A DNA stretch of 41,873 bases from an uncultured Clostridia bacterium (GTDB lineage Bacteria > Bacillota > Clostridia > Christensenellales > Borkfalkiaceae): positions 1-41,873 of the forward strand of contig CANQNO010000015.1 in assembly GCA_947625245.1 (NCBI GenBank), read 5' to 3'. A program made the translations under genes and the position numbers. Positions 6,347 through 31,048 of the stretch are shown here, piece by piece; within the stretch, counting starts at the first letter, position 1, and every line of letters begins with the position of its first letter. The notes under the pieces are model-generated. The model saw nothing but the letters and a program-made list of their open reading frames with translations. It was not told the origin of the DNA and did no database searches.

Positions 6347-7351
6347 ATGGAAGAAGATAAAAAAATACGCCATACGATTTCCGCTGAAGAGACGTTTACG
6401 CTTGCAAAGGACGTATTCGATTTGCGTACGCTCATCAAAAACATTTATTCCAACCGCGCCGTCATCTCCCGCAGGATAAATCTCGTCACTTTCTGCGTCA
6501 GTTCGCTGTTTACATTGCTTTATTTGGCATATGTGCTTTACGCAAGCTTTTTCGGCAAACTGTCGCTCGGCACCGAAATAACTTTGTACGTCCTTGCAGG
6601 GGTGTACGCCGTAATCGCCGCCGTGCTTCTCGCTTTAACTTTAATAAGCTTTAAGGCGCAGGCTAAAAACATAAAAAAATTCAATATTGCGCTTAAAATC
6701 ATACGGCTTACGGCAAGACTTCTTTCCATATCCATCTCCATTGCCGCAATAGCTCTGTCAAAGGCGGAGGGTCCGTCGCTGAACATCGCGCTCGAAATAG
6801 TCGTGATAATAATTTCGGTGATAACGCTTATCGCGCAGCTCATGCCGCTGTTTTTCGGCGGCGCGGCAAAATTCGTGCGCTGGCTTCTCTCGCCCGTCAA
6901 AATCAAAATGCGCTTTTCGGCGGTGGCGGTGGAGTGGTTCAACCTTGCCGTCACGGGCAAACCCCTTAAAGGTTCCGAAAGAAAAGTCAGCAAAAAGCAT
7001 TACGAAGCGATCGGCGGGTTGATAGACGGGGTGCTTAACCCCGCATTGGGCGATAAGTACATAAACTCCATAAAGCCCGCACAGCTTATTGCGCTTGACG
7101 AACATTGCCCCGAAACCTCCCGCCCCGTCCTCGAAGGCACTTTAAAGAGTATCTTCGCCTATGCGGCGGAGTGCGGATATGTCGTTTTCGACCCCTGCCG
7201 CGACTTGAATTTTACGGGTTCCGTCGAGGAAGAGAAGAAAAAAACTTTTAAGGACAGGATAGTGGGCGTGGGCACCAAATTGGGCAAAAAAGTGTTGGAT
7301 AAGTATATAGCGGCGTCATCCACCGACGACGCTACCGAAAACGGCGTATAA
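6347..7351 (+). CDS. Hypothetical membrane protein, four predicted transmembrane segments
   Basis: 334 residues, family not recognised. AAAGGTGA (6334-6341) precedes the ATG at 6347; the in-frame GTG at 6338 lies inside that site and is rejected. Four hydrophobic segments lie at about 45-67, 76-100, 112-133 and 142-170, followed by a hydrophilic cytoplasmic C-terminal half of about 160 residues. That half has the conserved-looking stretches KKHYEAIGGLIDGVLNPALG and ECGYVVFDPCRDL, and ends with a Lys-rich tail. A TATAAT at 6323-6328 with TTTACG at 6299-6304 could form a local promoter inside the end of the ABC-F gene. Its stop codon (7349-7351) lies inside the structured repeat B, so the last residues were supplied by the repeat or the repeat invaded the 3' end. 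Confidence 0.8.
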   Translation: MEEDKKIRHTISAEETFTLAKDVFDLRTLIKNIYSNRAVISRRINLVTFCVSSLFTLLYLAYVLYASFFGKLSLGTEITLYVLAGVYAVIAAVLLALTLISFKAQAKNIKKFNIALKIIRLTARLLSISISIAAIALSKAEGPSLNIALEIVVIIISVITLIAQLMPLFFGGAAKFVRWLLSPVKIKMRFSAVAVEWFNLAVTGKPLKGSERKVSKKHYEAIGGLIDGVLNPALGDKYINSIKPAQLIALDEHCPETSRPVLEGTLKSIFAYAAECGYVVFDPCRDLNFTGSVEEEKKKTFKDRIVGVGTKLGKKVLDKYIAASSTDDATENGV

Positions 7352-7460
7352 GCGTCGTTCTGCTGTGTCGGGCTTACGCACTCCTCGGTCACGTACTAAT
7401 TTGTACGCTCCCTTCGTCGTTTACGCGCCCTCCTTGCATAACTCGCTTCTCCGCCGTTTT
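7338..7460 (+). repeat. Structured repeat family B, copy 1
   Basis: About 123 nt with a long closing stem: AAAACGGCG (7338-7346) pairs with CGCCGTTTT (7452-7460), and AAGCG (7350-7354) with CGCTT (7444-7448). An inner stem is GGGC (7370-7373) with GCCC (7427-7430), and the apical hairpin is CGTAC / GTACG around 7392-7407. Compared with copies 2 and 3, three of these stems differ by paired substitutions that keep base pairing. It overlaps the stop codon of the preceding gene. Copies 2 and 3 are at 27424 and 30928, all in the same orientation. Confidence 0.85.
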
Positions 7461-7492
7461 CCACTTCGTAATTACAATATAAAAAATTTTCT

Positions 7493-7530
7493 GCGCCCGC
7501 GCGAGTTTCTCCCGCGCGGGCGCAATTTTT
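7493..7530 (+). terminator. GC-rich terminator-like hairpin
   Basis: An 11-bp perfect stem (7493-7503 with 7513-7523) is followed by AATTTTT. It probably ends the transcript of the four-TM protein gene. The same GCGCCCGCGCG stem recurs at 29778 and 31076, each time directly before a family A repeat. Confidence 0.65.
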
Positions 7531-7824
7531 AAATAATTACATAGCAATTTACGAGCTTGTCATTTCGAGGGATATGAGACCCGCGAAGCGGGCGATTGAC
7601 CGAGATTTCTCAAAAGGCGTAAGGGCAACGCCTTTTTCGGGCACCGCTCGCGCTTGCATATGCGCTCGCTCATCTCGCGCGGCAAAACAGCGCACTGTGC
7701 TGTTTTGAGAAATCCGCGCTCGTCCCACGGTGGTCTGCTCAGAGCAATTACGAAGAGCAAACACACTTCTAAAAATTTCCACCGCTCAACTTCGGGGGGA
7801 TTCTTCACTTCGTTCAGAATGACA
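7526..7824 (+). repeat. Interspersed repeat family A, copy 2 (long form)
   Basis: The core runs from TGTCATTTCGAGG (7558) to CAGAATGACA (7824), with the usual CCCGC-GAA-GCGGG hairpin. It carries a 107-bp internal segment (family C) after the GACCGAGA motif that is missing from copies 1, 3 and 4 but present in copy 5. Confidence 0.8.
7606..7712 (+). repeat. Internal segment C of repeat A, copy 1
   Basis: Bounded by inverted ends TTTCTCAAAA (7606-7615) and TTTTGAGAAA (7703-7712). Inside are the hairpins AAGGCGT/ACGCCTT and ACAGCGCACTGTGCTGT. The nearly identical partner is at 29885-29990, in the same position within family A. There is no coding capacity for a transposase. Confidence 0.75.
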
Positions 7825-7845
7825 GGAAGAGAGGGCGAGTAGCCC

Positions 7846-8296
7846 TCAAACTCACGAAAAATTGCAAGCACGGCTTGCTTGCAATTTTTGTGAACTTGTT
7901 TCTAAAATTATTAACGGCGCAAGCAAAATCGCCATTTTGCGCCGGCGCACCCAATTTGCGCATACCTGCGCCTGAGCGGGGTGAATGCCCGCGATTATAT
8001 TATTCGTGGGCGCTTAATTATCGTGGGCAGAGGGCAAGCAGCCCTCAAACTCACGAAAAATTGCAAGCACGGCTTGCTTGCAATTTTTGTGAACTTGTTT
8101 CTAAAATTATTAACGGCGCAAGCAAAATCGCCATTTTGCGCCTGCGCACCCAATTTGCGCATACCTGCGCCTGAGCGGTGTGAATTGCCGCCATTATATA
8201 ATACGTGGGCGCTTAAAATGGCGGCAAGAGAGGCAGCGCCTTTAAAACTCACGAAAAATTGCAAGCACGGCTTGCTTGCAATTTTTGTGAACTTAA
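7846..8296 (+). repeat. Tandem family D repeats, about 2.3 units of 198-199 bp
   Basis: The landmark CTCACGAAAAATTGC recurs at 7851, 8050 and 8248, giving periods of 199 and 198 bp. Each unit contains a 14-bp hairpin with A5/T5 flanks (around 7854, 8053 and 8254) and a spacer rich in GCGCC/GGCGC motifs. The last unit is cut off at the glyS stop codon. Short coding frames crossing the array are artefacts of the repeat. A single hairpin of this family ends metK (2159-2191), and a decayed piece lies before tsaD (27700-27742). Confidence 0.85.
8254..8286 (-). terminator. glyS terminator provided by the last family D hairpin
   Basis: A 14-bp perfect stem (8254-8267 with 8273-8286), CGGCT loop and U-rich exit on the minus strand, 11 bases after the glyS stop codon. 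Confidence 0.75.
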
Positions 8297-8297
8297 T

Positions 8298-9677
8298 TCA
8301 AAACTCAATCGCCTTTTCTATATATGCGGCAAGGTCGTCGGCGTTAAGCCGTATTTGCTCCATGCTGTCCCTGTCGCGCACGGTTACGGTGTTGTCGTTC
8401 AATGTGTCAAAGTCTACGGTAATACAGAACGGTGTGCCTATTTCGTCCTGCCTGCGGTAACGCTTGCCTATGGAGCCCGCCGAGTCGAACGTGACGGGGA
8501 AGCGCTTTGCAAGCTTACGGTAAATTTCCTGCGCCCTGTCCGAGAGATTTTTCTGCAAGGGCAGAACAGCGGCTTTATACGCGGCGACTGCGGGGTGCAG
8601 GTGCAAAATATTTCTCACCTCGCCGCCTTCGAGCGCCTCTTCGTCGTACGCTTCCGAAAGCACTGCAAGCATAAGCCTGTCCGCGCCTATAGAGTACTCT
8701 ATAACAAACGGGATATACCTTTCGTTCGTCACGGGGTCTACGTACTGCATAGTCTTTCCCGAAAATTCCTGATGGCGGGAGAGGTCGTAATCCGTTCTGT
8801 TGTGTATGCCGTTCAACTCCGACCAGCCCATCGGGAAATCGTACTGTATGTCGCAGGCGGATTTTGCATAGTGGGCGAGCTTGTCGTGGTCTTTAAATCT
8901 GAGCCGCTCTTCGGCAAAGCCCAAATCTATTAAAAACTTCCATGCTTTTTGCTTGTATTCTTCATAAAATTCTACGTCCGTGCCCTCTTTGCAGAACCAT
9001 TGGTGTTCCATTTGTTCGAATTCTATCGTGCGGAAAATGAAATTTCCGGGAGTAATTTCGTTGCGGAACGCCTTGCCTATCTGCGCTATGCCGAAAGGCA
9101 CTTTTGCGCGGGTGGTGCGCTGCACGTTCATAAAGTTCACAAATTCGCCCTGCGCGGTTTCGGGGCGCAGATAAATTTTGTTCTGGCTTTCGTCCGTCAC
9201 CCCGCGCGAAGTTTCAAACATAAGGTTAAATGTGCGGATATTCGTCCAATTGAATTTCCCGCATACGGGGCAGGGAACGCGGTGCTCGTTTATATACGCT
9301 TCCATCTCTTCGTTGGACATTGCGTCGGGATTTATTTTGCCTTTGGAGTGGTTTTCTATAAGCGTGTCCGCGCGGTGGCGGCTCTTGCACTCTTTGCAAT
9401 CCATTTTGGGATCGGAAAAGGAAGTGGTATGCCCGCTCGCTTCCCACACCCGCGAATTCATCAAAATCGCCGCGTCTATGCCGAAGCTCGAATCGCTTTC
9501 CTGAACAAATCTCTTCCACCAGAGCCTTTTTAAATTGTTCTTCATTTCCACGCCGACGGGCCCGTAATCCCAGGTATTGCCCATACCGCCGTATATTTCG
9601 CTTCCGGGAAAGATAATTCCCCGCGCCTTGCACAGGTTGACAAGTTTTTCCATAGTTACAATTCTTTGGGCAGACAT
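8298..9677 (-). CDS. glyS: Glycyl-tRNA synthetase, dimeric class II type
   Basis: Charges tRNA-Gly with glycine. This is the single-chain dimeric form (often called GlyQS), 459 residues. Visible class II features: GSEIYGGMGNTWDYGPVG near the N-terminus, motif 2 in FRNEITPGNFIFRTIEFEQME, and a C-terminal anticodon-binding domain (about 350-459) with GTPFCITVDFD and TVTVRDRDSM. A zinc-ribbon-like insert has Cys pairs (CKECKS, CPVCGK). I start at ATG 9677 because AAAGGAGC lies 5-6 bases before it; an in-frame start 19 codons upstream lacks such a site and would add a non-family peptide. The leader is short and shows no T-box elements. It is transcribed divergently from fhs and ends at a family D hairpin. 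Confidence 0.97.
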   Translation of the reverse strand: MSAQRIVTMEKLVNLCKARGIIFPGSEIYGGMGNTWDYGPVGVEMKNNLKRLWWKRFVQESDSSFGIDAAILMNSRVWEASGHTTSFSDPKMDCKECKSRHRADTLIENHSKGKINPDAMSNEEMEAYINEHRVPCPVCGKFNWTNIRTFNLMFETSRGVTDESQNKIYLRPETAQGEFVNFMNVQRTTRAKVPFGIAQIGKAFRNEITPGNFIFRTIEFEQMEHQWFCKEGTDVEFYEEYKQKAWKFLIDLGFAEERLRFKDHDKLAHYAKSACDIQYDFPMGWSELNGIHNRTDYDLSRHQEFSGKTMQYVDPVTNERYIPFVIEYSIGADRLMLAVLSEAYDEEALEGGEVRNILHLHPAVAAYKAAVLPLQKNLSDRAQEIYRKLAKRFPVTFDSAGSIGKRYRRQDEIGTPFCITVDFDTLNDNTVTVRDRDSMEQIRLNADDLAAYIEKAIEF

Positions 9678-9739
9678 CAAAAGCTCCTTTTGCACGCGGA
9701 CGCCGCCGCGCACCGCAAATTTTATGGTTTTCAATAGAT

Positions 9740-9768
9740 ATTTTATAAAAATACAGCCGTCAAGTCAA
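9740..9768 (-). promoter_or_regulatory. Probable glyS promoter
   Basis: On the minus strand TTGACT (9768-9763), 17-base spacer, TAAAAT (9745-9740). The -35 box sits in an imperfect inverted repeat (GCCGTCAA..TTGACGGC) around 9756-9780. Confidence 0.6.
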
Positions 9769-9854
9769 GTGATTGACGGCAGGGCGGGCGCCGGCGTTAA
9801 GAAAATCTTTTTAAAAAGCCGCTGTAAAACTTAAAAAAATCCGACTTCAAACAG

Positions 9855-9883
9855 TGTACTTTTTACGCGCGGTATGTTATAAT
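9855..9883 (+). promoter_or_regulatory. Probable fhs promoter
   Basis: A perfect TATAAT at 9878-9883 lies 29 bases before the ATG; the -35 candidate TGTACT (9855-9860) is weak but at 17-base spacing. Confidence 0.45.
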
Positions 9884-9912
9884 AAATTGAATATTTTACA
9901 GGCGGTTAAATT

Positions 9913-11574
9913 ATGCTTTCGGATATCGAAATCGCGGAAAGTTGCAAAATGAAAGACATACGCGAGATAGCGGCTAAATTGGGGCTTTGCGAGGACGACC
10001 TCGAATTATACGGTAAATACAAGGCAAAAATCCATCTTAAAAAAATCGATCCCCGCGCCAAACTTATACTCGTCACGGCAATCAATCCCACGGCGAGCGG
10101 CGAGGGCAAGACCACCGTTTCGATAGGACTTTCGGACGGGCTTTCCAAAATAGGCAAAAAGGTTTGCCTTGCTTTGAGGGAACCTTCTTTGGGCCCTGTT
10201 TTCGGCGTCAAAGGCGGCGCGGCGGGCGGCGGATACTCGCAGGTCGTGCCCATGGCGGACATAAATTTACATTTTACGGGCGATTTGCATGCCATAACGG
10301 CGGCAAACAATCTGCTTTGCGCTATGATAGACAACCATATTTTGCGCAACCTGCAGCCCAAAATCAAGACGGTCTATTTCAAACGCTGTATGGACATGAA
10401 CGACCGCGCTTTGAGGAACATAACCCTGCATAACCCCGCGGGCGCAATGAAAGGCTGCGAAAGCTACGACCGCGAAGAGGGCTTCGAAATAACCGCCGCT
10501 TCAGAGGTGATGGCTTGCCTGTGCCTCGCGACCGACCTTGCCGACCTCAAAAAGCGGCTCGGCAACATAATAGTTGGTGTATCCGACTGCGGGGAGTACG
10601 TACGCGCAAGCGATTTAAAAGCCGAGGGGGCTATGGCTACCCTTTTAAAGGACGCAATAAACCCCAACCTCGTGCAAACCCTCGAGGGCACCCCCGCGAT
10701 AGTGCACGGCGGACCCTTTGCCAATATCGCGCACGGCTGCAATTCCGTACGCGCTACATACGCCGCAATGACCCTTGCCGACTACGCCGTAACCGAAGCG
10801 GGCTTCGGCGCCGATTTGGGCGCGGAAAAGTTTATGGACATGAAATGCCGCGTCGCCGGGATAGAGCCTGACTGCGTGGTGGTAGTCGCCACGGTAAAGG
10901 CGCTTAAACTGCACGGCGGATCGGACAAGACCGAACTCTCCGTAGAAAATCTTCCCGCACTCAGGGCGGGGCTTCCCAACCTTGCAAAGCATATCGAAAA
11001 TATCGCAAACGTTTTCAAAAAACCCGTGGTGGTTGCAATGAACCGCTTTGCCTCCGATACCGGAGCGGAGATAGACGAAGTGCTGTCTTTCTGTAACAAA
11101 AAGGGCGTTAAAGCTGTGTTCTGCGACGTATTCTTAAAGGGCGGCGAGGGCGGCACCGAACTTGCCAAAGCCGTTGCGGAGGAGTGCGAAAAGCCTTCCC
11201 GTCTCTCATACGCATACGATTTTGCCGATCCAATAGTTAAAAAAATCAACGATATAGTCAAAAACGTATACGGCGGTTCGGGCGCGCGGTTTTCGGAAAC
11301 CGCCCTTTCAAAAATCGCCGAAATAGAGGGGAAAGGTATAAAGGGTCTGCCCGTAATAATAGCCAAAACGCAGTATTCTTTGTCCGACGACCCCAAAAAA
11401 CTCGCCCGTCCCGAAGGGTTCGAAATTTTTGTGAGGGATATAATTTATAAGGGCGGCGCAAATTTCGTCGTCGCCGTCGCGGGCGAAATAATGCTGATGC
11501 CCGGTCTTTCCAAAACGCCCGGTGCCGAAAGGATAGACGTGGACGCCGACGGAAAGATAAGCGGGCTGTCCTGA
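9913..11574 (+). CDS. fhs: Formate--tetrahydrofolate ligase
   Basis: ATP-dependent formation of 10-formyltetrahydrofolate from formate and tetrahydrofolate, the entry to the methyl branch of one-carbon metabolism used by acetogens and purine-fermenting Clostridia and for purine synthesis. The 553-residue length matches the family (about 556). The nucleotide-binding loop is NPTASGEGKTTVSIGL (about 57-72); the usual family text has PAGEGKTT, so the ProAla pair is AlaSer here. Other strongly conserved blocks: REPSLGPVFGVKGGAAGGGYSQV, DINLHFTGD.HAI, and GFGADLGAEKFMD. The weak AGGCGG at about 9900 is the only ribosome binding site. glnS follows after 33 bases, suggesting a small operon. No other folate gene is adjacent. 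Confidence 0.97.
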   Translation: MLSDIEIAESCKMKDIREIAAKLGLCEDDLELYGKYKAKIHLKKIDPRAKLILVTAINPTASGEGKTTVSIGLSDGLSKIGKKVCLALREPSLGPVFGVKGGAAGGGYSQVVPMADINLHFTGDLHAITAANNLLCAMIDNHILRNLQPKIKTVYFKRCMDMNDRALRNITLHNPAGAMKGCESYDREEGFEITAASEVMACLCLATDLADLKKRLGNIIVGVSDCGEYVRASDLKAEGAMATLLKDAINPNLVQTLEGTPAIVHGGPFANIAHGCNSVRATYAAMTLADYAVTEAGFGADLGAEKFMDMKCRVAGIEPDCVVVVATVKALKLHGGSDKTELSVENLPALRAGLPNLAKHIENIANVFKKPVVVAMNRFASDTGAEIDEVLSFCNKKGVKAVFCDVFLKGGEGGTELAKAVAEECEKPSRLSYAYDFADPIVKKINDIVKNVYGGSGARFSETALSKIAEIEGKGIKGLPVIIAKTQYSLSDDPKKLARPEGFEIFVRDIIYKGGANFVVAVAGEIMLMPGLSKTPGAERIDVDADGKISGLS

Positions 11575-11607
11575 CGATAATTTTGCTAAATTTTCAGGGG
11601 TGATGAT

Positions 11608-13254: not shown

Positions 13255-13268
13255 TAATCGGAGTCATT

Positions 13269-14330
13269 GTGGGTATTGCAAACATTATAAATTTATGCGT
13301 GCTTTTATTGTTTTCCCTTACGGGTCTTATAATGGGGCTTGTAAAGGGCTTTAAAAGGGTAAAGAGTTGGGGCAGCGATTATTTTCTGTCCTCTCTTGCG
13401 ACAATAGGCACGGGCGCGATTTTGATAAAGTGCAACGTTAACGCAAAAGTGGGCGGAATAGTTATAATCGCCTGTGCGATAGCTTATATGTTCCTCTTTA
13501 TGGGAATTTCAAAGCTCGTGCGCAGTCTTTTGGAGCGCGCTTTCGAACGCCGCGAGGACGATATGCGCAAACTCGGCGGAGTGGGGGTCGTAAACAGACT
13601 GTTCGGCGGCTATGCGCTCGCCGTAAAGGGCTTTGTCATTGCCGCTATTATCTTAGTACTTTTTTACACGGTGGCGGATCTATCGGGCGTCGCCTCGCTT
13701 AAAAACGCCTTTGCGGGCGTTTATTCGGGCGGAGTATGGAAGGTGCTAAAGCCCTATATTTTCGACTTTATAATTCTCGGCGTAATAAATCTTTCCGTCC
13801 GTCACGGCTATTCCAACGGCTTGTCGTCGGCTCTGTGGGGGCTGGCGGTTTTGGGTTTGGTTGTGGGAAGCGGCTTTGTAGCTTACAACCTTGTGTTCAA
13901 AACCACCCTTTTCGGCGGCGCCGCGCAGTCGTTCAGCCTTAAACTCGCCAACGTTGTAAAGAACGCGGACATTGCGCTCACCGCGGCGAAGTGGATATTG
14001 ACGGCTATAATGTTCATTGTTTTGGCTATAGTGGTGTTCGTAGCGTCTTTCTTCGTTTCAAGGGTCATAACTTTTGCCCGCGCCGATTCCGCCTATTATC
14101 TTGTGGACGGCATTTTGGGTGCAACGGTGCTCACTTTGATATTTATCGCCGCAATGCTGTTCGTCGGCTCGATATTCGCGCCTGTTTCCGACCTCGGGTT
14201 TATGGCGCCTTTTACGGGCTATTGTTCGGGCGGTTCGGTCTGCAGATATTTCTACACCGAAAATCTGCTCACCCAGTTCGGTATGCCTGCGTTCCTTCCG
14301 TTGCGCAGTTGGTTTGCCGCAACCGCATAA
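13269..14330 (+). CDS. CvpA-like polytopic membrane protein
   Basis: 353 residues starting with GTG at 13269, preceded by GGAG at 13260-13263. The N-terminus (IINLCVLLLFSLTGLIMGLVKGFKRV) resembles the start of CvpA-family proteins, which are membrane proteins of uncertain role first linked to colicin V production. About seven to nine hydrophobic segments are visible across the chain, with Gly/Ala-rich packing motifs. It is longer than typical CvpA (about 160-200 residues), so it may be a duplicated or extended variant. It is the last gene of the fhs-glnS run and ends before a strong terminator. Confidence 0.6.
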   Translation: MGIANIINLCVLLLFSLTGLIMGLVKGFKRVKSWGSDYFLSSLATIGTGAILIKCNVNAKVGGIVIIACAIAYMFLFMGISKLVRSLLERAFERREDDMRKLGGVGVVNRLFGGYALAVKGFVIAAIILVLFYTVADLSGVASLKNAFAGVYSGGVWKVLKPYIFDFIILGVINLSVRHGYSNGLSSALWGLAVLGLVVGSGFVAYNLVFKTTLFGGAAQSFSLKLANVVKNADIALTAAKWILTAIMFIVLAIVVFVASFFVSRVITFARADSAYYLVDGILGATVLTLIFIAAMLFVGSIFAPVSDLGFMAPFTGYCSGGSVCRYFYTENLLTQFGMPAFLPLRSWFAATA

Positions 14331-14346
14331 TAAATTCAATAAATGC

Positions 14347-14380
14347 AAAAGCGCCCCCGTCCGCGGACGGGGGCGCTTTT
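14347..14380 (+). terminator. Bidirectional terminator between the CvpA-like gene and the DUF1540 gene
   Basis: A 34-base perfect palindrome (AAAAGCGCCCCCGTCC and its complement) with A4/T4 ends. It lies between convergent genes and can serve both. Confidence 0.85.
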
Positions 14381-14383
14381 AAG

Positions 14384-22833: not shown

Positions 22834-22890
22834 AAATGCGCCGTAAAATCAACTTTTTCCAAAAATTTCAAAAATTCGCGGGAAAAGAAT

Positions 22891-23024: not shown

Positions 23025-26000
23025 ATGGGCTTAATCAAATTTATCATGGGCTCCGACAGCCGAGGCGCCCTCAAAAAACTGGACAAAATGGCTAAAAAGG
23101 TGGAAGAGCTCGAACCCAAATACCAGGCTATGTCCGACGCCGAACTTAAAAGCCAGACGGGCATTTTAAAGGGAAGGCTCGCCGCGGGCGAAACGCTCGA
23201 CGACATTTTGTACGACGCTTTCGCCGCCCTGCGCGAAGCGAGCTGGCGCGTTTTGAAGATGAAGCACTTCCACGTCCAGATAGTCGGCGGCATATGCCTG
23301 CATCAGGGACGTATCGCCGAAATGAAGACGGGCGAAGGCAAAACCCTCGTCTCCACATTGCCCGCATATCTTAACGCGCTCACGGGCAAGGGCGTACACA
23401 TAGTTACGGTAAACGACTACCTCGCACGGCGCGACGCGGAGTGGATGGGCAAGGTACACAAGTTCATGGGTCTCACCGTGGGCGTTGTGGTTCCGGGCAT
23501 CGACGACGACGAAAAAAAGAAAGCTTATGCCTGCGACATAGTTTACGCCACAAACAACGAGCTCGGCTTCGACTACCTGCGCGACAACCTCAAAACTTCT
23601 ATTCCCGCAATGGTCCAGCGTGAGCTCAACTTCTGCATAATCGACGAAGTCGACTCCATACTTATAGACGAAGCGCGTACGCCCCTTATAATTTCGGGGC
23701 GCGGCGGCGAAAGTTCCGAACTTTACGAGCGCGTGGACAGGTTCGTGCGCACACTTTCGGGCGGGTTCGACGACGACAAAGAAGACGCATTAAAAAAGGC
23801 GCCCGCAAGAGTCGTAAAGCAGTACGAAGCCGAAGAACGGTTGAGAAATTCGGTAAGGCACCTCAACAATTGGGATTATGAAATCGACCGCGACGAGAGG
23901 AAAATAACCATTTCCGAAATTTCGGGCGACGGGCTTACGGCAACCGAAATAGAACGCGCCGCCGACGAAAAGATAGAACTAATTTTAAAAGAGATCGAAG
24001 GTTGGGATTATGTTATTGCCGTAAAGGGCGGCAAGGTTACCGTAACCGACAAGGATTCAAAGAAAAAAGCTGCGCGCGAATATACCGAAGAGGAAAAACA
24101 GGCGATAAACCGCTTGCAGGAGGTTTTGCGTGAGAGCCGCGATTGGGATTATATAGTGGACAGAAAAGATAAGTCTGTCACCATTACCGAAAAGGGCTCC
24201 AAAAAAGCCGAAAGGTTTTTCAATATTGCCAACTTCGGCGACATAGAAAACGCCGATTTGCACCATCACATACAGCAGGCTTTAAAGGCGCACGAGCTTT
24301 TCCATAACGGCGAGGAATATATAATTTCCGACGACGGCGAAGTGCAGATAGTAGACGAGTTTACGGGACGTATTCTCCACGGCAGGCGCTATTCGGACGG
24401 GTTGCACCAGGCAATAGAAGCCAAAGAGCACGTAAAGGTCAAGGAAGAGAACAAGACCCACGCCACGGTCACCTTCCAAAACTATTTCCGCCTTTACGCC
24501 AAACTTTCGGGCATGACGGGTACGGCTAAAACCGAAGAGGACGAATTCAGGACAATCTATTCCCTCGACGTCGTGCCTATCCCCACCAACCGCCCCGTAA
24601 AGAGAGTGGATAACCCCGACATGATCTATTCCACCGTCGAGGGCAAAAAGAAAGCCATAGTCAACGAAGTCGTCGCCCGCCACGAAACGGGCCAGCCTAT
24701 TCTTATAGGTACCGTCACGGTAGATAAGTCGGAGGAAATTTCCCGTCTTTTGCGCCGCAACGGCATAAAGCACAATATCTTAAACGCCAAAAACCACGAG
24801 CGCGAAGCCGAAATAGTTGCGCAGGCGGGGCGTTTCGGTGCGGTTACCATTTCAACCAACATGGCGGGGCGCGGCACCGATATCCTTTTGGGCGGCAACC
24901 CCGAATATCTTGCCAAAAAACGCATGCGCGAAGAGGGGTACGACCACGACATGGTGGAAGTTGCCATTTCGTATGCCGACCGCGAATTCTCCGAAGAAGA
25001 GCAAAAAGCGCGCGCAAGGTACGCCGAACTCTATGAAATGTATAAAAAGGAGACCGACGAGGAAAAGCAAAAAGTTATTGCCGCAGGCGGGCTTTGCATA
25101 ATAGGCACCGAGCGGCACGAATCCCGCCGTATCGACAACCAGCTCCGCGGCAGAAGCGGACGTCAGGGCGACCCGGGCGCCTCGGTATTCTTCATTTCCC
25201 TCGAGGACGACCTTGCAAAGCGTTTCGGCGGCGAAAGCCTTAAAAAGCTGTACACCATATTCAAAATCGACGACGACCAATGCCTGCAATCGCGGCTGTT
25301 GACCCGTTCCATCGAGAACGCCCAGCGCACGATAGAGGGCAGGAACTTCGGTATCCGCAAACACACCCTCCAATACGACGAAGTCATGAACGAACAGCGT
25401 AAAACCATTTACGGCGAGCGCATGAAAGTCCTTAAAGGCGACGACGTTCACGACCAAATGCTTAAATATATTCCCGATTACGTCGCAAAAATCGTTGCGG
25501 AAACGGTGCGCGTAGAGGAAATGCCCGAAAAATGGGATGAAAACGCCCTTAACGAAGCGTTGCGCCAAAAAGTATATCCCGACGAGTGCACTTTCGAAAT
25601 CACCCGCGAAATGCTCGAAAAATGGGATTACGAAGCGGCTATCAATAAAATCAGCAAGGAAGTCGCCAAGGCTTACGAGCTTAAAATAGAAAATATCAAC
25701 AAGATACTCGAAGAGGTAAAGGCGGACAATCCGCAGGCAAGGCTGCCCGATTCTTTTGCGCAGGTAGAACGCGAAGTCCTGTTAAGAACGGTAGACGTAA
25801 ACTGGATAGACCATATCGACGCCATGGACCAGCTCAGAAAGGGCATAGGCCTGCGCGGTTATGCCCAGCAAGACCCCATAATTGCCTATAAGGCAGAAGG
25901 CCACGAGATGTTCGAGGAGATGATAGAGCGCGTTCAGAACGCAACCATCTCCATGCTGTTAAAGCGCATCCGCCTTGAAAAGAGAGCGCCGGCTCCCGTG

Positions 26001-26303
26001 CGCAAAGTCACAATGGAGCCGCCCCGCACCGTACAGGCTCCTCCCGCGGCGCCTGAAGAAAACCCGCCGCAACCCGCAGCCGAACAGCGTGAAGGGCAAA
26101 CGGGCGGCGGCATAAATTCCCGCACGGATTTGTTTTTGGGCGGAACTCCCGCCAAAAAGCCCGCAAACCTTGTGCCCAATATCGATTCCAAACAAATTCC
26201 AAAAGTCAACCAAAAATCGGCTAAAATAGGCAGGAACGACCCTTGCCCTTGCGGAAGCGGCAAAAAATACAAGGATTGCTGTTACTGGAAAGACCATAAA
26301 TAA
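23025..26303 (+). CDS. secA: Preprotein translocase ATPase SecA, with an enlarged cross-linking domain
   Basis: Motor ATPase that pushes preproteins through SecYEG. 1092 residues against about 840-900 usually. Walker A MKTGEGKTL is at about 100-108; the DEAD-type motif is in IIDEVDSILIDEARTPLI; the second nucleotide-binding fold has ISTNMAGRGTDILLGGNPE and QLRGRSGRQGDPG; the C-terminus carries the zinc-binding CPCGSGKKYKDCC after a Pro-rich linker. The extra length lies mainly at about 240-410, inside the preprotein cross-linking domain: a WDY..VTITE module occurs three times, with tryptophans at 283, 327 and 374, where canonical SecA has one such segment (DYEVDEKTRTVTLTEEG). The core continues normally afterwards. 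AAAGGAG before ATG 23025 supports the start. prfB follows after 12 bases. Confidence 0.97.
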   Translation: MGLIKFIMGSDSRGALKKLDKMAKKVEELEPKYQAMSDAELKSQTGILKGRLAAGETLDDILYDAFAALREASWRVLKMKHFHVQIVGGICLHQGRIAEMKTGEGKTLVSTLPAYLNALTGKGVHIVTVNDYLARRDAEWMGKVHKFMGLTVGVVVPGIDDDEKKKAYACDIVYATNNELGFDYLRDNLKTSIPAMVQRELNFCIIDEVDSILIDEARTPLIISGRGGESSELYERVDRFVRTLSGGFDDDKEDALKKAPARVVKQYEAEERLRNSVRHLNNWDYEIDRDERKITISEISGDGLTATEIERAADEKIELILKEIEGWDYVIAVKGGKVTVTDKDSKKKAAREYTEEEKQAINRLQEVLRESRDWDYIVDRKDKSVTITEKGSKKAERFFNIANFGDIENADLHHHIQQALKAHELFHNGEEYIISDDGEVQIVDEFTGRILHGRRYSDGLHQAIEAKEHVKVKEENKTHATVTFQNYFRLYAKLSGMTGTAKTEEDEFRTIYSLDVVPIPTNRPVKRVDNPDMIYSTVEGKKKAIVNEVVARHETGQPILIGTVTVDKSEEISRLLRRNGIKHNILNAKNHEREAEIVAQAGRFGAVTISTNMAGRGTDILLGGNPEYLAKKRMREEGYDHDMVEVAISYADREFSEEEQKARARYAELYEMYKKETDEEKQKVIAAGGLCIIGTERHESRRIDNQLRGRSGRQGDPGASVFFISLEDDLAKRFGGESLKKLYTIFKIDDDQCLQSRLLTRSIENAQRTIEGRNFGIRKHTLQYDEVMNEQRKTIYGERMKVLKGDDVHDQMLKYIPDYVAKIVAETVRVEEMPEKWDENALNEALRQKVYPDECTFEITREMLEKWDYEAAINKISKEVAKAYELKIENINKILEEVKADNPQARLPDSFAQVEREVLLRTVDVNWIDHIDAMDQLRKGIGLRGYAQQDPIIAYKAEGHEMFEEMIERVQNATISMLLKRIRLEKRAPAPVRKVTMEPPRTVQAPPAAPEENPPQPAAEQREGQTGGGINSRTDLFLGGTPAKKPANLVPNIDSKQIPKVNQKSAKIGRNDPCPCGSGKKYKDCCYWKDHK

Positions 26304-26315
26304 TAAATTAAAATT

Positions 26316-27416
26316 ATGTTTAAAGCAGACGATTACAGATTAAAACTCAAAGCCCTTGCCGACACGTTGGGCGAGGCAAAATATGCGCTCGACATCGATA
26401 ATTTGGGCGAGCGGCTCTCAATGCTCAAAAAAGAACAGGAGAGCCCCGAAGTATGGCAGGATTTGGAAAAATCCGCAAAAATCGGCAGAGAAATTTCCTC
26501 TGTCGAAAATAAAATTTCAAGCTATAAAAAGGGCGAAGCCGCTCTCGCCGACGCAAACGCCTATGTCGACCTCATCGAAGAGGCGGGCGACGAGAGCTTG
26601 ATACCCGAACTCGAACAGATGATTTCCGACGCCGAAACGGACATTGAGGAGATGCGCATACGCGCCTTGCTCCGCGGCAAATACGACGCGAACAACGCCA
26701 TTTTAAACCTGCACTCCGGCGCGGGCGGCACGGAAGCCTGCGACTGGACGCAAATGCTTTACAGAATGTATTGCAGGTATTGCGAACAGCAGGGCTTTAA
26801 AGTGACCGAACTCGACTGTGAGGACGGCGACGAAGCGGGGTTAAAGAGCGTTAGCTTTAAGGTCGACGGCGAAAACGCATACGGCTTTTTAAAGGCGGAA
26901 AAGGGAGTGCACAGGCTTGTGCGCATATCCCCGTTCGACGCCAACAAGCGCCGCCACACGTCCTTTGCCTCGCTCGAAGTTATGCCCGAAATAGACGACG
27001 AAAACGAGGTGGAGATCCGCGACGAGGATATCCGCATAGACGTATACCGTTCTTCGGGCGCGGGCGGGCAAAAGGTAAATAAAACCGAAACGGCTATAAG
27101 GATCACTCATTTCCCCACGGGGATAGTGGTTACCTGCCAGAACGAGCGCAGCCAGCTGCAAAACAAGGCTATGGCGTTCGAATACCTCCGCGCAAAGCTT
27201 GTCGAAAGGCAGATAGCCGAGCGCGAAGCCGCCGACGCAGAGCTTAAAGGCGAAATCAAAAAGATAGAGTGGGGCAGTCAGATCCGCAGTTACGTATTCT
27301 GCCCGTACACCCTTGTAAAAGACCACCGCACGGGTTATGAAAACACAAATATTCAGGCTGTCATGGACGGGGATATACAGGGGTTTATAATAGATTATCT
27401 CAAAAAAACCGTTTAA
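26316..27416 (+). CDS. prfB: Peptide chain release factor 2
   Basis: Recognises UGA and UAA stop codons and triggers peptide release. 366 residues. The codon-reading tripeptide region is RISPFDANKRRHTSF (SPF); the catalytic GGQ is in SGAGGQKVNKTETAIRITH. The whole protein is in one frame: the N-terminal helical domain runs straight from MFKADDYRLKLKAL with no in-frame UGA near codon 26, so the autoregulatory +1 frameshift found in most bacterial prfB genes is absent. It is 12 bases after secA, the usual clostridial secA-prfB order, and has no clear ribosome binding site of its own. Structured repeat B starts eight bases after its stop. Confidence 0.97.
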   Translation: MFKADDYRLKLKALADTLGEAKYALDIDNLGERLSMLKKEQESPEVWQDLEKSAKIGREISSVENKISSYKKGEAALADANAYVDLIEEAGDESLIPELEQMISDAETDIEEMRIRALLRGKYDANNAILNLHSGAGGTEACDWTQMLYRMYCRYCEQQGFKVTELDCEDGDEAGLKSVSFKVDGENAYGFLKAEKGVHRLVRISPFDANKRRHTSFASLEVMPEIDDENEVEIRDEDIRIDVYRSSGAGGQKVNKTETAIRITHFPTGIVVTCQNERSQLQNKAMAFEYLRAKLVERQIAEREAADAELKGEIKKIEWGSQIRSYVFCPYTLVKDHRTGYENTNIQAVMDGDIQGFIIDYLKKTV

Positions 27417-27423
27417 CTGCCGT

Positions 27424-27544
27424 AAACCGCGTATAAGCGTCGTTCTGCTGTGTCGTGCTGTGGCAACCCTCAGTCACTTACCATTAAAGTAAGCTCCTTC
27501 GGGTTATCCTCGCACTCCTTGCATAACTCGCTTCTCCGCGGTTT
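27424..27544 (+). repeat. Structured repeat family B, copy 2
   Basis: 121 nt directly after prfB. Stems: AAACCGCG (27424-27431) with CGCGGTTT (27537-27544); AAGCG (27435-27439) with CGCTT (27529-27533); GTGC (27455-27458) with GCAC (27512-27515); AACCC (27465-27469) with GGGTT (27501-27505); hairpin CTTAC (27477-27481) with GTAAG (27489-27493). Confidence 0.85.
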
Positions 27545-27556
27545 CTCATCTTAAAC

Positions 27557-27695
27557 TTTCTAAATAATTACTGCGCCCATTACGAGCGATGTCATTTCGA
27601 GGGATATGAGACCCGCGAAAGCGGGCGATTGACCGAGAGAATCCCCCCGTGGTCTGCTCAGGGCAATTACGAAGAGCGACTTCTAAAAATCACCG
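27557..27695 (+). repeat. Interspersed repeat family A, copy 3 (3' truncated)
   Basis: Starts TTTCTAAATAATTAC, core from TGTCATTTCGAGG (27590) with hairpin CCCGC-GAAA-GCGGG and AATCCCCCC, but it lacks the GGGGGATT..GAATGACA end and runs into a family D fragment. Confidence 0.75.
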
Positions 27696-27699
27696 CCTC

Positions 27700-27742
27700 T
27701 CAAACTCACGAAAAATCGCAGGCGCGGCTTAATTGTGAACTT
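27700..27742 (+). repeat. Family D fragment, decayed
   Basis: TCAAACTCACGAAAAATCGCAG then GCGGCTTAATTGTGAACTT resembles the hairpin of the 7846-8296 array, but the stem is broken by changes. It ends eight bases before the tsaD start. Confidence 0.6.
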
Positions 27743-27750
27743 ACTTTTGT

Positions 27751-28791
27751 ATGTACAACATAAAATCCTTTAAAATCAAATCCTCACCCGTGATTTTGGG
27801 CATTGAATCGAGTTGCGACGAAACCGCCGCGGCGGTAATTTCGGGCAGAAAGCTATTATCTTCCGAAATAATTTCTTCCGCGGCAGAACAGTCCGTATAC
27901 GGCGGGGTCGTGCCCGAAATAGCTTCCCGCGCTCACACCGAAGCCGTGGACGAAGTCGTCACCCGCGCATTGAAGAGCGCAAACGTCGCCCTTTCGGATA
28001 TCGACGCCGTTGCCGTAACATACGGTGCGGGGCTTTTGGGCGCGCTTCTGGTGGGGCTTTCCTTTGCTAAGGGTTTGGCATATTCATTAAATATTCCCCT
28101 CGTTGCCGTCAACCATATCCGCGGTCACCTTGCCGCGGCATATCTTGTCGCCGAAGACTTAAAGCCGCCTTTCATAACCTTGCTTGCAAGCGGCGGGCAC
28201 ACCGCGGTTCTGCACACGCTCACTTACACCGATTTTGAAGTTTTGGGAGAGACCTGCGACGACGCCGCAGGTGAAGCGTTCGACAAAGTCGCCCGCGTTC
28301 TGGGGCTTGCCTACCCCGGCGGGGTCAACGTGGAGCGGCTCGCCCGCGACGGGCAAAACACGGTAAAATTGCCTTCCGCGCTCGTTAAAAACGCAACCTG
28401 TATGCAGTTTTCCTACAGCGGTCTCAAAACGGCGGTTATAAACGCCGTGCACCATGCGGAGCAAAAGGGCGAAGTTTTAAACAAACCAAACATAGCCTGT
28501 TCCTTTCAGCATGCGGCGATCGACCCGCTTGTAAAAAAGACGGTCGAGTGCGCCAAATCCCGCAACGTTTCCACCGTGACGGCAGGCGGCGGGGTAATTG
28601 CCAACGGCTATTTAAGGGACGCCCTCACAAAGGCTTGCCAAAAGGCGGGTTTAAGGTGCGTTTTGCCCGAAAAGCGTTACTGCACCGACAACGCCGCAAT
28701 GATAGCGGCGGAAGGTCTCACCCAATATCTCTGCGGCAACTTCGCAAGCCTTGATATCAACGCCGCCGCCCGCATACCTTTAAAAAAATAA
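27751..28791 (+). CDS. tsaD: tRNA N6-adenosine threonylcarbamoyltransferase TsaD
   Basis: Transfers the threonylcarbamoyl group to A37 of ANN-decoding tRNAs (t6A), with TsaB, TsaC and TsaE. 346 residues from the ATG at 27751. Family blocks: VILGIESSCDETAAAV, the metal-binding HIRGH (VNHIRGHLAAAYL), the ATP site GGVIANGYLR near 280-290 and the third metal ligand region CTDNAAMIA. The conserved family sequence begins near GTG 27790 (VILGIESS), so a start there would remove 13 residues; neither start has a Shine-Dalgarno sequence. TsaB and TsaE genes are not adjacent. The upstream region consists of repeats. Confidence 0.95.
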   Translation: MYNIKSFKIKSSPVILGIESSCDETAAAVISGRKLLSSEIISSAAEQSVYGGVVPEIASRAHTEAVDEVVTRALKSANVALSDIDAVAVTYGAGLLGALLVGLSFAKGLAYSLNIPLVAVNHIRGHLAAAYLVAEDLKPPFITLLASGGHTAVLHTLTYTDFEVLGETCDDAAGEAFDKVARVLGLAYPGGVNVERLARDGQNTVKLPSALVKNATCMQFSYSGLKTAVINAVHHAEQKGEVLNKPNIACSFQHAAIDPLVKKTVECAKSRNVSTVTAGGGVIANGYLRDALTKACQKAGLRCVLPEKRYCTDNAAMIAAEGLTQYLCGNFASLDINAAARIPLKK

Positions 28792-28811
28792 AATTATAAT
28801 CCTTAAATTCA

Positions 28812-28840
28812 TTGACAATTTTAATGCGGTTTGTTATACT
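28812..28840 (+). promoter_or_regulatory. rpsU promoter
   Basis: TTGACA (28812-28817), 17-base spacer, TATACT (28835-28840). Confidence 0.88.
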
Positions 28841-28894
28841 TTAAAAGCTCGCTTGTTCGGGCAATAAGTGCGCAAGGCAAAGGAGGGTAGTAAG

Positions 28895-29074
28895 ATGTCA
28901 ACCATAAGAGTAGGCGAAAACGAATCTGTTGAAAGCGCGTTAAGGCGTTTTAAAAGAAAGTGCTCGCGCGACGGCATAATCGGCGATTTGCGTAAAAAAG
29001 AATTTTACGAATCTCCCTCTGTCAAAAAGCGCAAAAAGGCAGAAGCCGCAAGGAAGAGAAACAACAGAAATTAA
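28895..29074 (+). CDS. rpsU: 30S ribosomal protein S21
   Basis: 59 residues: [20 protein letters not shown], then [20 protein letters not shown] and a strongly basic tail. Typical bacterial S21, located near the anti-Shine-Dalgarno end of 16S rRNA in the ribosome. AAAGGAGGG lies before ATG 28895; an in-frame ATG nine codons upstream overlaps this site and is rejected. It has its own strong promoter and a terminator three bases after the stop. Confidence 0.98.
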
Positions 29075-29077
29075 CTT

Positions 29078-29116
29078 AAAAGTTCGTTGCACATAAGAAG
29101 TTGCAACGAACTTTTT
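29078..29116 (+). terminator. rpsU terminator
   Basis: A 14-bp perfect stem (29078-29091 with 29102-29115), loop of ten bases, then a T run. Confidence 0.85.
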
Positions 29117-29161
29117 CATTATAAAATTTGTCGATTTAAAGCTGAATTTGTAGAGGGGAAA

Positions 29162-29548
29162 ATGGAAGATATAAAATTAATGGCTCGCGCCGCCAAACAG
29201 CGGCTTAAAAGCAATTTTTGGAGCGACTGCAAAAAGCAATTCGATTTAAACGCCACCGAAGCAAAGGAACGCGGTATAAGTGAAATCAAAATAAAATCTT
29301 CAATGAAAGGTCAGGTAAAAAGCACTATCCGCGGCGAAAAGGACGATGAATTTTATCTTAAAGTCAAAAAGATGCTCGACGAGGAGGGCGAAGTTTTCGA
29401 CGCGCTCGGCAGGCTTACCGACAAGGAATACTATAACACCCTTACGTACGAAGAAAAGACCCGCTACACGCTCGACCTTGCCAACAAATACAACGCCGCG
29501 CTTGCAAAGTGGAGAAAGGAAAGGGAGTTAAGTGGTCTGACTTCGTAA
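29162..29548 (+). CDS. Conserved-looking hypothetical protein
   Basis: 128 residues, soluble, highly charged and predicted mostly helical; no signal peptide or membrane segment. It starts MEDIKLMARAAKQRLKSNFW at ATG 29162, preceded by AGAGGGGAAA; an in-frame ATG at 29087 lies in the rpsU terminator and is rejected. Notable stretches are FWSDCKKQFDLNATEAKERG and LTYEEKTRYTLDLANKYNAAL. The position after rpsU is often held by a YqeY-like gene, but I do not see YqeY motifs. It may depend on read-through from rpsU. I do not recognise the family. Confidence 0.75.
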   Translation: MEDIKLMARAAKQRLKSNFWSDCKKQFDLNATEAKERGISEIKIKSSMKGQVKSTIRGEKDDEFYLKVKKMLDEEGEVFDALGRLTDKEYYNTLTYEEKTRYTLDLANKYNAALAKWRKERELSGLTS

Positions 29549-29552
29549 ATGC

Positions 29553-29739
29553 TTTCTAAAATATTTACATAGTAATTTACGAGTATGTCATTTCGAGTCG
29601 AAGGAAGACGCGCCAAAGGCGCGCGACCGAGCGAGATAATCCCCCCGTGGTCTGCTTTAGGTTATTACGAAGAGCGGAATTCCAAAGTCTTTGCTTCCGC
29701 TCAACTTCGGGGGGATTCTTCACTTCGTTCAGAATGACA
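29553..29739 (+). repeat. Interspersed repeat family A, copy 4
   Basis: Full-length: TGTCATTTCGAG (29586) to AGAATGACA (29739). The internal hairpin is CGCGCC-AAA-GGCGCG instead of the CCCGC/GCGGG of other copies, with pairing kept. Inner pair AATCCCCCC / GGGGGGATT. Confidence 0.8.
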
Positions 29740-29777
29740 GGGGGGAGAGAGGTTTCTAACTTCGTAATTGCAATAAT

Positions 29778-29802
29778 GCGCCCGCGCGTTCCGCGCGGGC
29801 GC
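29778..29802 (+). repeat. GC-rich hairpin preceding family A copy 5
   Basis: An 11-bp perfect stem (29778-29788 with 29792-29802) with TTC loop. It is the same stem as at 7493 and 31076. It does not follow a gene and has no T run, so it looks like part of the repeat rather than a dedicated terminator. Confidence 0.65.
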
Positions 29803-30037
29803 TTACTAAATAATAACAAAGAAACTTACGAGCTTGTCATTTCGAGGGATATGAGACCCGCGAAAGCGGGCGATTGACCGAGAGTTCTCAAAAGGCGTAA
29901 GGGCAACGCCTTTTTCGGTCACCGTTCGCGCCTGCATATGCGCTCACTCATCTCGCGCGGCAAAACAGCGCACTGTGCTGTTTTGAGAAATCCGCGCTCG
30001 TCCCCCCGTGGTCTGCTCGGGGCAATTGCGAAGAGGT
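29803..30037 (+). repeat. Interspersed repeat family A, copy 5 (long form, 3' truncated)
   Basis: Core from TGTCATTTCGAGG (29835), hairpin CCCGC-GAAA-GCGGG, then segment C (29885-29990), then TCCCCCCGTGGTCTGCTC, stopping near GCGAAGAGG without the GAATGACA end. Confidence 0.75.
29885..29990 (+). repeat. Internal segment C of repeat A, copy 2
   Basis: TTCTCAAAA (29885-29893) to TTTTGAGAAA (29981-29990), almost identical to 7606-7712 and placed at the same point of the host repeat. Confidence 0.75.
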
Positions 30038-30051
30038 TCCAAAAAATGCTA

Positions 30052-30079
30052 ACAGCGGCGCAAATGCGCCGCTGTTTCT
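30052..30079 (+). terminator. Terminator-like hairpin
   Basis: ACAGCGGCGCA (30052-30062) pairs with TGCGCCGCTGT (30065-30075), followed by TTCTGTTT. No gene lies directly upstream, so its role is unclear. Confidence 0.45.
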
Positions 30080-30239
30080 GTTTATGAATATGTACATAGA
30101 ATAATATGTTCTGCGTACTTAGTACTTTAACAGTATATTCCCAACTTCATTTTATGTCAAGAAATAACGCCGCATTTCTGTGAAAAAAACAAAAATTTTT
30201 TAAATATGTTATTTTAACCGCTTTCCGCCGCCTTTTTCA

Positions 30240-30294
30240 GCCGTGTGAAAGCACATAGAACATATTATTCTATGTGCTTTCACACGGCGTTTTT
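30240..30294 (+). promoter_or_regulatory. Long hairpin upstream of the pilin gene (terminator or leader element)
   Basis: A 21-bp perfect stem (30240-30260 with 30268-30288), seven-base loop, followed by GTTTTTGTT. An inverted 19-base match to part of it (30257-30275) lies at 30094-30112. It may insulate or attenuate transcription into the pilin gene, whose start is 96 bases downstream. The rest of 30080-30383 holds a short palindrome GTACTTAGTAC (30115-30125) and AT-rich sequence with no clear promoter. Confidence 0.55.
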
Positions 30295-30383
30295 GTTGCC
30301 GCAAAAGGACAATTTTGGATATCTCGCCGTACATCCCTGCGGTGTGTATATTAAATAAAAAAAATCAAGGAGACAAAAAAACA

Positions 30384-30803
30384 ATGTTACAAAAAACAAG
30401 AAGCAAAAAAGGCTTTACGCTTGCCGAACTTTTGATAGTAGTAGCTATTATCGCAGTTCTTACCGCAATCGCAGTGCCTCTCTTCGTTAGCGGCGTTAAA
30501 AAGGCGCAAGACGCAACACTTCAAGCAAATATTCGTGCTGTACGCGGTGAAGCGGTTGCTGTTATATTAATGGCTGAATCTGGTGATGACATGTATATCG
30601 ATACTGTATTCGGTGGGGCTACTACGGCATATGTTGAAGCCACTGTAGATAAATCTGGGAATATGGGACCTGTATCGATATCTTCCAAAAAAGCCGAAAC
30701 GACAGAATATGGTGGCGAAGAAGGTCAATGGGACGGCGATAAGCAAACAACGATAGTCGTTAAATTAACCAAAACCGATTTATCGAAGAAAGTAGGCGGT
30801 TAA
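30384..30803 (+). CDS. Type IV pilin-like (prepilin) protein
   Basis: 139 residues beginning MLQKTRSKKG-FTLAELLIVV: a short basic leader, the prepilin peptidase site after Gly10, Phe at +1 and Glu at +5, then one hydrophobic helix to about residue 32. This is the class III signal of type IV pilins, pseudopilins and competence pilins. The C-terminal domain is small, acidic and without a cysteine pair. AAGGAG before ATG 30384 decides the start over one 23 codons upstream. No assembly ATPase, platform protein or prepilin peptidase is nearby, so it is an orphan in this window. It is flanked on both sides by repeats. Confidence 0.88.
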   Translation: MLQKTRSKKGFTLAELLIVVAIIAVLTAIAVPLFVSGVKKAQDATLQANIRAVRGEAVAVILMAESGDDMYIDTVFGGATTAYVEATVDKSGNMGPVSISSKKAETTEYGGEEGQWDGDKQTTIVVKLTKTDLSKKVGG

Positions 30804-30890
30804 CAATTAGCAAGCCAAAGCGGCATTGATATTGCAAGGGTATGCCGCAAAGCTTATATCCGTATCTATAGGGATGTACGATATGGGGTG

Positions 30891-30919
30891 GCGGGGTGTT
30901 TTCACACCCCGCTATTTTT
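30891..30919 (+). terminator. Pilin gene terminator
   Basis: GCGGGGTGT (30891-30899) pairs with ACACCCCGC (30904-30912), followed by TATTTTT. The 87 bases between the pilin stop and this hairpin include a further GCGGCAT/ATGCCGC pairing. Confidence 0.85.
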
Positions 30920-30927
30920 GCTCCCGA

Positions 30928-31048
30928 AAACCGCGTATAAGCGTCGTTCTGCTGTGTCGTGTTGCGGCAACCCTCAGTCACTTACGTCTATGTAAGCTCC
31001 TTCGGGTTATTCCTCGCACTCCTTGCATAACTCGCTTCTCCGCGGTTT
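30928..31048 (+). repeat. Structured repeat family B, copy 3
   Basis: 121 nt, starting nine bases after the pilin terminator. Stems as in copy 2: outer AAACCGCG/CGCGGTTT, AAGCG/CGCTT, GTGT (30959-30962) with GCAC (31016-31019, one U-G wobble), AACCC/GGGTT, and CTTAC (30981-30985) with GTAAG (30992-30996) around a different loop. Confidence 0.85.

Follow-up and report, generated by a model that had tools for sequence, protein, structure and literature searches.

The enterobacterial repetitive intergenic consensus (ERIC) elements, also known as IRU, RU-1 or MITEEc1, are widely used in DNA fingerprinting, and De Gregorio 2005 is said to be the main paper on their position and orientation. In their sections on these repeats, three reports describe ERIC from enterobacteria and Vibrio and leave both the mobilising enzyme and the reason for the fold unsettled (PMC2229807, PMC2759123, PMC2267715); one of them, in the part concerned with its genome survey, scanned 40 genomes, two of them Clostridium, and gives ERIC for E. 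coli, Y. pestis and V. cholerae (PMC2267715). Among the literature matches listed, no title or beginning of an abstract reports ERIC relatives in Firmicutes or Clostridia. Here we describe a 121-base repeat that is present in three copies, at positions 7339-7459, 27424-27544 and 30928-31048, in a 41,873-nucleotide (nt) stretch of DNA from an uncultured Clostridia bacterium (contig CANQNO010000015.1, assembly GCA_947625245.1; Borkfalkiaceae, Christensenellales, Bacillota), hereafter the window. The repeat is a real, strongly covarying hairpin whose placement behind stop codons and terminators is unusually exact, and we interpret it, with a probability of about 0.7, as a small non-autonomous mobile repeat that represents a Bacillota branch of an ERIC superfamily.

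On the minus strand, the three window copies fold with -51 to -58 kcal/mol (z about -8 to -9), compared with -39 to -42 kcal/mol (z -4 to -6) on the plus strand, and 0 of 200 shuffles folded as well for any of the three copies on either strand. The fold is a single rod. From its base it comprises an outer stem, AGA/TAT with one G.A, a short helix, a G.A mismatch, a six-pair stretch containing one mismatch, and AA/ACA. A single G-C pair follows, then a tandem G.A, a helix of four pairs and the variable centre; the rod is capped by an apical helix of six pairs, which opens with a fixed G.T beside tandem G.A. Fixed purine-rich loops split the helices, namely the tandem G.A by the fixed G.T, and AAGG[A/C] opposite [G/A]AC[A/G]CAG. 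Most elements are 121-132 nt long, some carry an insert that extends them to about 153 nt, and central modules are swapped among copies. The preliminary description of the window had already reported three copies of about 121 nt, with conserved blocks and with changes in the outer stem, the inner stem and the apical hairpin; all of these are present in the sequence, with copy 1 lying at 7339-7459. Two of its details needed correction: the AACCC/GGGTT pairing that it saw in copies 2 and 3 belongs to one of several interchangeable central modules, and it is the strand opposite to the upstream gene, not the one sharing its orientation, that is by far the better folder.

Both sides of a pair change at 16 of 38 pairs in an alignment of 26 copies from the own genome (A2; score 0.275, versus 0.114 when shuffled), at 31 of 38 in 147 copies (A3; 0.485 versus 0.169) and at 37 of 38 in 60 diverse copies (A6; 0.725 versus 0.178), which strongly supports the earlier proposal that selection acts on structure. 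When the partner columns are shifted by 1-3 positions, the share of paired cells, about 90% in all three alignments, falls to 44% or less. A2 is a free alignment, and its RNAalifold structure was modified manually; A3 and A6, having been fitted to a model, are biased towards the structure. The count of further pair types is not above that of shuffles in A2 (22 versus 25.5), is matched by 36 of 500 shuffles in A3 and is reached by none in A6. The strand asymmetry extends beyond the window copies: of 135 full copies (12 of the 147, outside 120-160 nt, were excluded), 129 fold better on the element strand under RNA parameters and 133 do so under DNA parameters, and the same strand is the better one in 21 of 21 copies from across the phylum and in all 5 of the ERICs folded. 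The conserved tandem G.A mismatches occur on the minus strand only, and the element strand as a whole holds 168 G.A but 17 C.T mismatches (helix 6 and the fixed G.T pair excluded).

Three covariance models were used for searches, with E-values from a shortened calibration: R1, built from the 26 own-genome copies; R2, from 104 copies of this order only; and R3, from 60 copies of the order, the phylum and IMG/VR contigs. The preliminary description had proposed searching such a model over the genome and its relatives, and R1 yields 38 matches in the own genome (1.42 Mb), where a DNA search gives 36, short pieces among them. In a set of 41 genomes, R1 matches occur in 27 (own included); within the genus, 22 of 24 genomes are positive with 1-64 matches each (55 in G006, more than 50 also in G014 and G024, 18 in G002, none in G008 and G018), and 4 of the 16 other genomes of the order are positive. 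Larger samples extend this range to 116 of 297 genomes and 43 of 125 genera of the order (R1, E up to 1e-4) and to 35 of 398 genomes and 31 of 267 genera of the phylum (R2), the own genome being included in both; these genome counts are lower bounds, with 11 and 8 candidates scored per genome, respectively. None of the 34 other positive genomes in the phylum sample is labelled as the same class, and at least 14 genomes of the same class have no match. An earlier, first pattern scan of named genomes had given 0 matches; a sequence pattern later found 94 stretches there, and all 80 listed are Clostridia, Clostridiales, Eubacteriales or Coproplasma metagenome-assembled genomes, several of them Candidatus Coproplasma. 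In IMG/VR, a search with R2 of 32 of 52 loci that had been preselected by the apical core gives 28 matches at E up to 0.01. Full-length ERIC-like elements were seen on viral-listed contigs with unknown hosts, in L351, L356, L379 and other IMG/VR loci.

For the comparison with ERIC, loci were fetched with a 44-base ERIC core query, which matches 5375 of 5426 E. coli genomes and 283 plasmid records. R1 aligns the ERIC between ybhI and ybhJ of E. coli over its full length with 26.4 bits, the next match in that locus scoring 8.3; within 100 kb of K-12 it places the ERIC first (26.5 bits, next match 18.2), and four plasmid ERICs score 26.5, 25.3, 10.9 and 9.4 bits. R2 recovers five of six enterobacterial ERIC loci at full length with 22.7-37.1 bits (best other match 12.0), and R3 nine of ten with 29.4-48.3 bits (best match elsewhere 14.6), the ten loci representing nine distinct sites, one of which was taken from two strains. 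The K-12 copy scores 26.5, 34.2 and 38.9 bits with R1, R2 and R3, and on a 50-kb K-12 stretch devoid of the core pattern R3 reports nothing at E up to 1. A sequence-only profile finds four of six ERICs at E 1e-6 to 1e-4, which supports the centre of the element. A two-motif pattern, written after both groups had been seen, occurs in 31 of the 135 copies of the genus, in 6 of the 21 from the phylum and in 3 of the 6 ERICs, where shuffles lead one to expect 7.5e-5 per 150 nt.

The resemblance extends to many features. ERIC measures 127 bp and likewise forms a single long imperfect hairpin, with an apical core GGAGCTTAC..GTAAGTGACT that contains the tandem G.A and the G.T, and with a basal AAGGC..AACGCAG motif. 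The corresponding apical core of window copy 3, AGGAGCTTACAT ... GTAAGTGACTG on the minus strand at 30975..31001, is near letter-for-letter that of E. coli ERIC, and we take it to be reminiscent of the ERIC primers. In both groups the same strand is the better folder, and both are multicopy and intergenic; at three of nine sites ERIC, too, closely follows a stop codon in antisense orientation to the gene. ERIC differs in its host phylum, which is Bacillota here, in the outer stems, which in the Clostridia are unrelated in sequence and highly variable, and in the absence of an extra G.A loop that many of our copies have between the core and the next helix. The placement at stop codons is also far tighter in these Clostridia (90 of 136 copies) than at the nine enterobacterial sites, three of which are antisense within 5 nt. 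Terminal stems do exist in the new element, but they differ from those of ERIC and among copies, and the ERIC end sequence was not found in the terminal inverted repeats. Because the terminal stem sequences differ, we assign the element to an ERIC superfamily and not to ERIC proper. The preliminary description had named a match to an already catalogued family among the results that would refute it; the similarity to ERIC partly provides such a match, although the Rfam searches gave nothing relevant, with only an S-adenosylmethionine (SAM) riboswitch in the window and no match over the gathering threshold in five further loci.

A gene lies on the 3' side of the element in 143 copies, and 137 of these are antisense to it. 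Among 136 full copies (11 of the 147, shorter than 120 nt, were excluded, and gene positions come from simple home-made gene callers), 90 lie within 13 nt of the antisense gene's stop codon, 25 before it and 65 behind it, while 16 lie at 14-70 nt and 21 farther away; in 6 the orientation is the opposite one, and 3 lack a gene on that side. Where genes flank the element on both sides (n=117), 85 copies are within 13 nt against 14.7 expected under uniform placement; for copies behind the stop only, the figures are 61 of 93 against 6.6. The gene on the other side is at a median distance of 344 nt. The edges of the copies define three classes of insertion site, in which the element directly follows a stop codon, a terminator T-tract or another copy. 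The reading frame enters the element for 12 or 13 nt and stops at an internal TAA in 14 cases, window copy 1 included. Two copies on opposite strands (C8 in genome G006) each follow their own adjacent gene, so orientation goes with the gene there. Across the phylum, 7 of 18 copies with a known 3' flank are within 13 nt of an antisense stop according to a crude list of open reading frames (ORFs). Among the ERICs, that at ybhI is antisense and 1 nt away from the stop codon in both of the E. coli strains, that of Kosakonia lies 1 nt behind a stop and that at ubiV 5 nt, both antisense; the K. aerogenes ERIC, about 15 nt behind alaS, has the other orientation, and five of the nine sites are elsewhere.

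We read the element as mobile because orthologous genes in related species can lack it: it is present in some and absent in others, with the gene ends kept, among other places in spacers that we read as fusA-tuf, L29-L14 and secY-adk and as belonging to ribosomal-protein and translation-factor operons. Match numbers within the genus range from 0 to 64, elements occur in tandem, and partial pieces that keep the distal end stack behind full copies in G014 and G006. Of the two readings that the preliminary description had offered, copy number and presence or absence between species favour that of a mobile structured repeat. The element would be copied by an enzyme supplied in trans, and most insertions would fall closely behind a stop codon, behind a terminator T-tract or behind an existing copy, leaving the host gene largely intact. 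With its folded strand, which the mobiliser may recognise, antisense to the gene followed, the inserted element would become part of a 3' untranslated region (UTR) or of an operon spacer, and any influence on mRNA stability, which has been proposed for Yersinia ERIC, would come second. With regard to the host, the element would most simply be a parasite.

At the insertion boundaries, one group has TA at gap 9 on the distal side in 50 of its 98 copies, with TA scattered on the gene side; the 29 copies of the other group give nothing clear (only copies with full flanks were tallied). Several copies have the ends TAAAACGC..GCGTTTTA. A Photorhabdus relative of ERIC is reported, in the part of the work dealing with it, to have IS630-type ends and a TA duplication (PMC6267812). 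As to further arrangements, tandem copies and repeated central pieces were seen in L060, L078, L081, L117, L118 and L153. Downstream of the elements in L121 and L096, there are chains of distal-end pieces of several subtypes, as if new copies entered on the gene side while older ones were displaced and truncated. Composite repeats spaced about 226 bp apart (L030 1200-1600 and L037 100-480; G000 C18 and C21) start with the element's first 20 bases and go on with other repeat DNA.

Several points weigh against a mobile branch of an ERIC superfamily. The presence of the core in the ERIC loci is given, because these loci were chosen by that core. The Serratia ERIC yields partial matches at noise level (11.3 bits with R2, 15.4 with R3); gammaproteobacterial sequence may be present in R3 but not in R1 or R2, since 18 of the 60 rows of R3 come from IMG/VR and are of unknown host; and with the sequence-only profile, the arms alone are not significantly similar to ERIC. 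On the side of mobility, some absences are losses, because the G017 L150 site keeps a gene-side remnant of the element; several T-tract sites are devoid of TA, and the TA duplication reported for the ERIC relative is not clear here. Nor was a mobiliser found in the own genome by the searches for Y1 transposase, reverse transcriptase and IS630-type transposase: Y1 (PF01797) was not found in the own genome, the sole genome searched, and the IS630-type enzyme (PF13358, DDE_3) in none of the 31 genomes searched.

The insignificant arms, the partial Serratia match and the choice of loci by their core, together with outer stems completely different from those of ERIC, would also suit a separate Bacillota mobile family that came to look like ERIC by being shaped for the same kind of enzyme, with no common descent. 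We consider such convergence rather unlikely. Two motifs recur in the same order and spacing in both groups, at a frequency (3 of 6 ERICs) far above the 7.5e-5 per 150 nt of shuffles; the apical core is nearly identical letter for letter; size is similar, the strand asymmetry is the same and placement sometimes is; and the score climbs from R1 to R2, both of which were built without gammaproteobacterial sequence. These shared features argue that the Bacillota element and ERIC probably descend from a common ancestor.

The strong covariation and the tight placement at gene 3' ends could also be expected of a cis-acting structured RNA that serves the host, either an antisense RNA or a 3' UTR element that regulates the gene followed, and Yersinia ERIC is reported to affect the stability of the mRNA with which it is cotranscribed (PMC2229807, in its section 10). 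This we hold to be very unlikely, and the structured 3' UTR RNA put forward in the preliminary description is not favoured: 129 of 135 copies fold less well on the sense strand, orthologous genes can be without the element, tandem copies and truncated pieces occur, there is no Rfam match, and G.U pairs are rare. When pairs formed in fewer than 80% of the rows and the fixed G.T pair are set aside, A3 has 47 G.U and 32 A.C among 4160 cells, alignment A4 has 64 and 46 among 3108, and alignment A5 has 14 and 9 among 596, but a control of 29 SAM riboswitches from the same genome group has 37 and 2 among 590 (Fisher p of 3e-5, 7e-6 and 1e-3 against A3, A4 and A5). The G.U share of 1.1-2.4% is thus about 3 to 6 times lower than the 6.3% of the riboswitch; a second control of 22 tRNAs has a G.U share of 6.6%, its zero A.C count being built in. 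The scarcity of G.U better fits a folded DNA strand, as an RNA helix would allow more of these pairs, but because relatedness makes the copies non-independent and the two alignments differ in how they were built, it is no more than a hint. The riboswitch of the window itself lies at 3396-3481 on the minus strand and scores over the Rfam gathering threshold; its relatives made up the control.

Because G.U is hardly above A.C, G.A is kept on one strand and the strand bias reaches 133 of 135 with DNA parameters, we tentatively suggest a wider picture, as a speculation, in which ERIC, the Bacillota repeats and the IMG/VR copies, perhaps together with BOX, belong to a single superfamily found across bacteria whose members move in the form of a single, folded DNA strand. 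In this picture, the rod and its tandem G.A loops would be what an as yet undescribed enzyme acts on, attaching the rod to DNA at the places where transcripts or reading frames end. A family that spans phyla and has many covarying copies would provide ERIC with a structural model and reveal which of the loops are under selection; it would also make it possible to test which enzyme recognises the folded strand and how insertion targets stop codons and terminators.

Insertion of a retro-mobile RNA by reverse transcription at transcript 3' ends, that is, at terminator ends and at mRNA ends at stops, would agree with the T-tract and stop-codon sites, with partial copies that retain the gene-distal end and with the reverse transcriptases in 7 of 25 genomes searched (G005 and G014 among them), but is extremely improbable, as no reverse transcriptase was found in the own genome, in G006 with its 55 matches or in G002 with its 18, in assemblies that are 93-95% complete, so that absence is not proof.

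Other known repeats share some of these traits. Pneumococcal BOX is, like our element, a modular, mobile hairpin of Bacillota, and according to the portion of a report that treats this aspect, it provides 36 genes of one genome with their stop codon (PMC3049150). R2 aligns BOX end to end, with TAGGA and GACG in register; for the one BOX tested, the score is nevertheless not significant with either model (9.0 bits, E 0.077 with R2; 13.5 bits, E 0.5 with R3, below the best unrelated match of 14.6). This BOX, in L393, closes the prophage record of Streptococcus satellite phage Javan437. REP and REPIN sequences, which are associated with RAYT (Y1) transposases, are short structured repeats at gene 3' ends, in contrast to which the present element is a much longer rod, in a genome where the Y1 search was negative. 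The attC sites of integrons conserve structure rather than sequence, are folded from the bottom strand and stand right after gene ends; unlike them, the element does not show, by eye, conserved recombination boxes in its outer stems, which vary among copies, and several copies follow conserved genes, not cassette arrays.

Within the window, all three copies have their folded strand on the minus strand. Copy 1 (7339..7459) overlaps the 3' end of ORF 6338-7351: the element starts ahead of the stop, and the last codons and the stop of the ORF come from it. The sequence GCTACCG at 7331..7337 (+) forms its gene-side edge, and GCTNCCG or a close variant is the gene-side edge in many copies of the G000/G006/G014/G017 group. 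Copy 2 (27424..27544) starts 7 nt past the stop codon (27414-27416) of gene 26316-27416, which encodes a release factor with PCRF and RF-1 domains. Copy 3 (30928..31048) starts not at a stop codon but just after a terminator-like hairpin and T-run (30890..30919, +), which exemplifies the second insertion-site class, also seen in other copies. The placement, originally described as the 3' end of the upstream gene for all three, thus differs among the copies. As for the neighbouring genes, ORF 6338-7351 has a weak match to the phage-integrase central domain, under the Pfam cut-off, and the orthologue of the release-factor gene in G014 (L122) carries an element at the same place as copy 2. A second repeat, TGTCATTTCGAGGGATATGAGACCCGCGAA..CGGGCGATTGACCGAGA, lies downstream of copies 1 (about 7558-7611) and 2 (27590-27639), and pieces of it occur near further copies.

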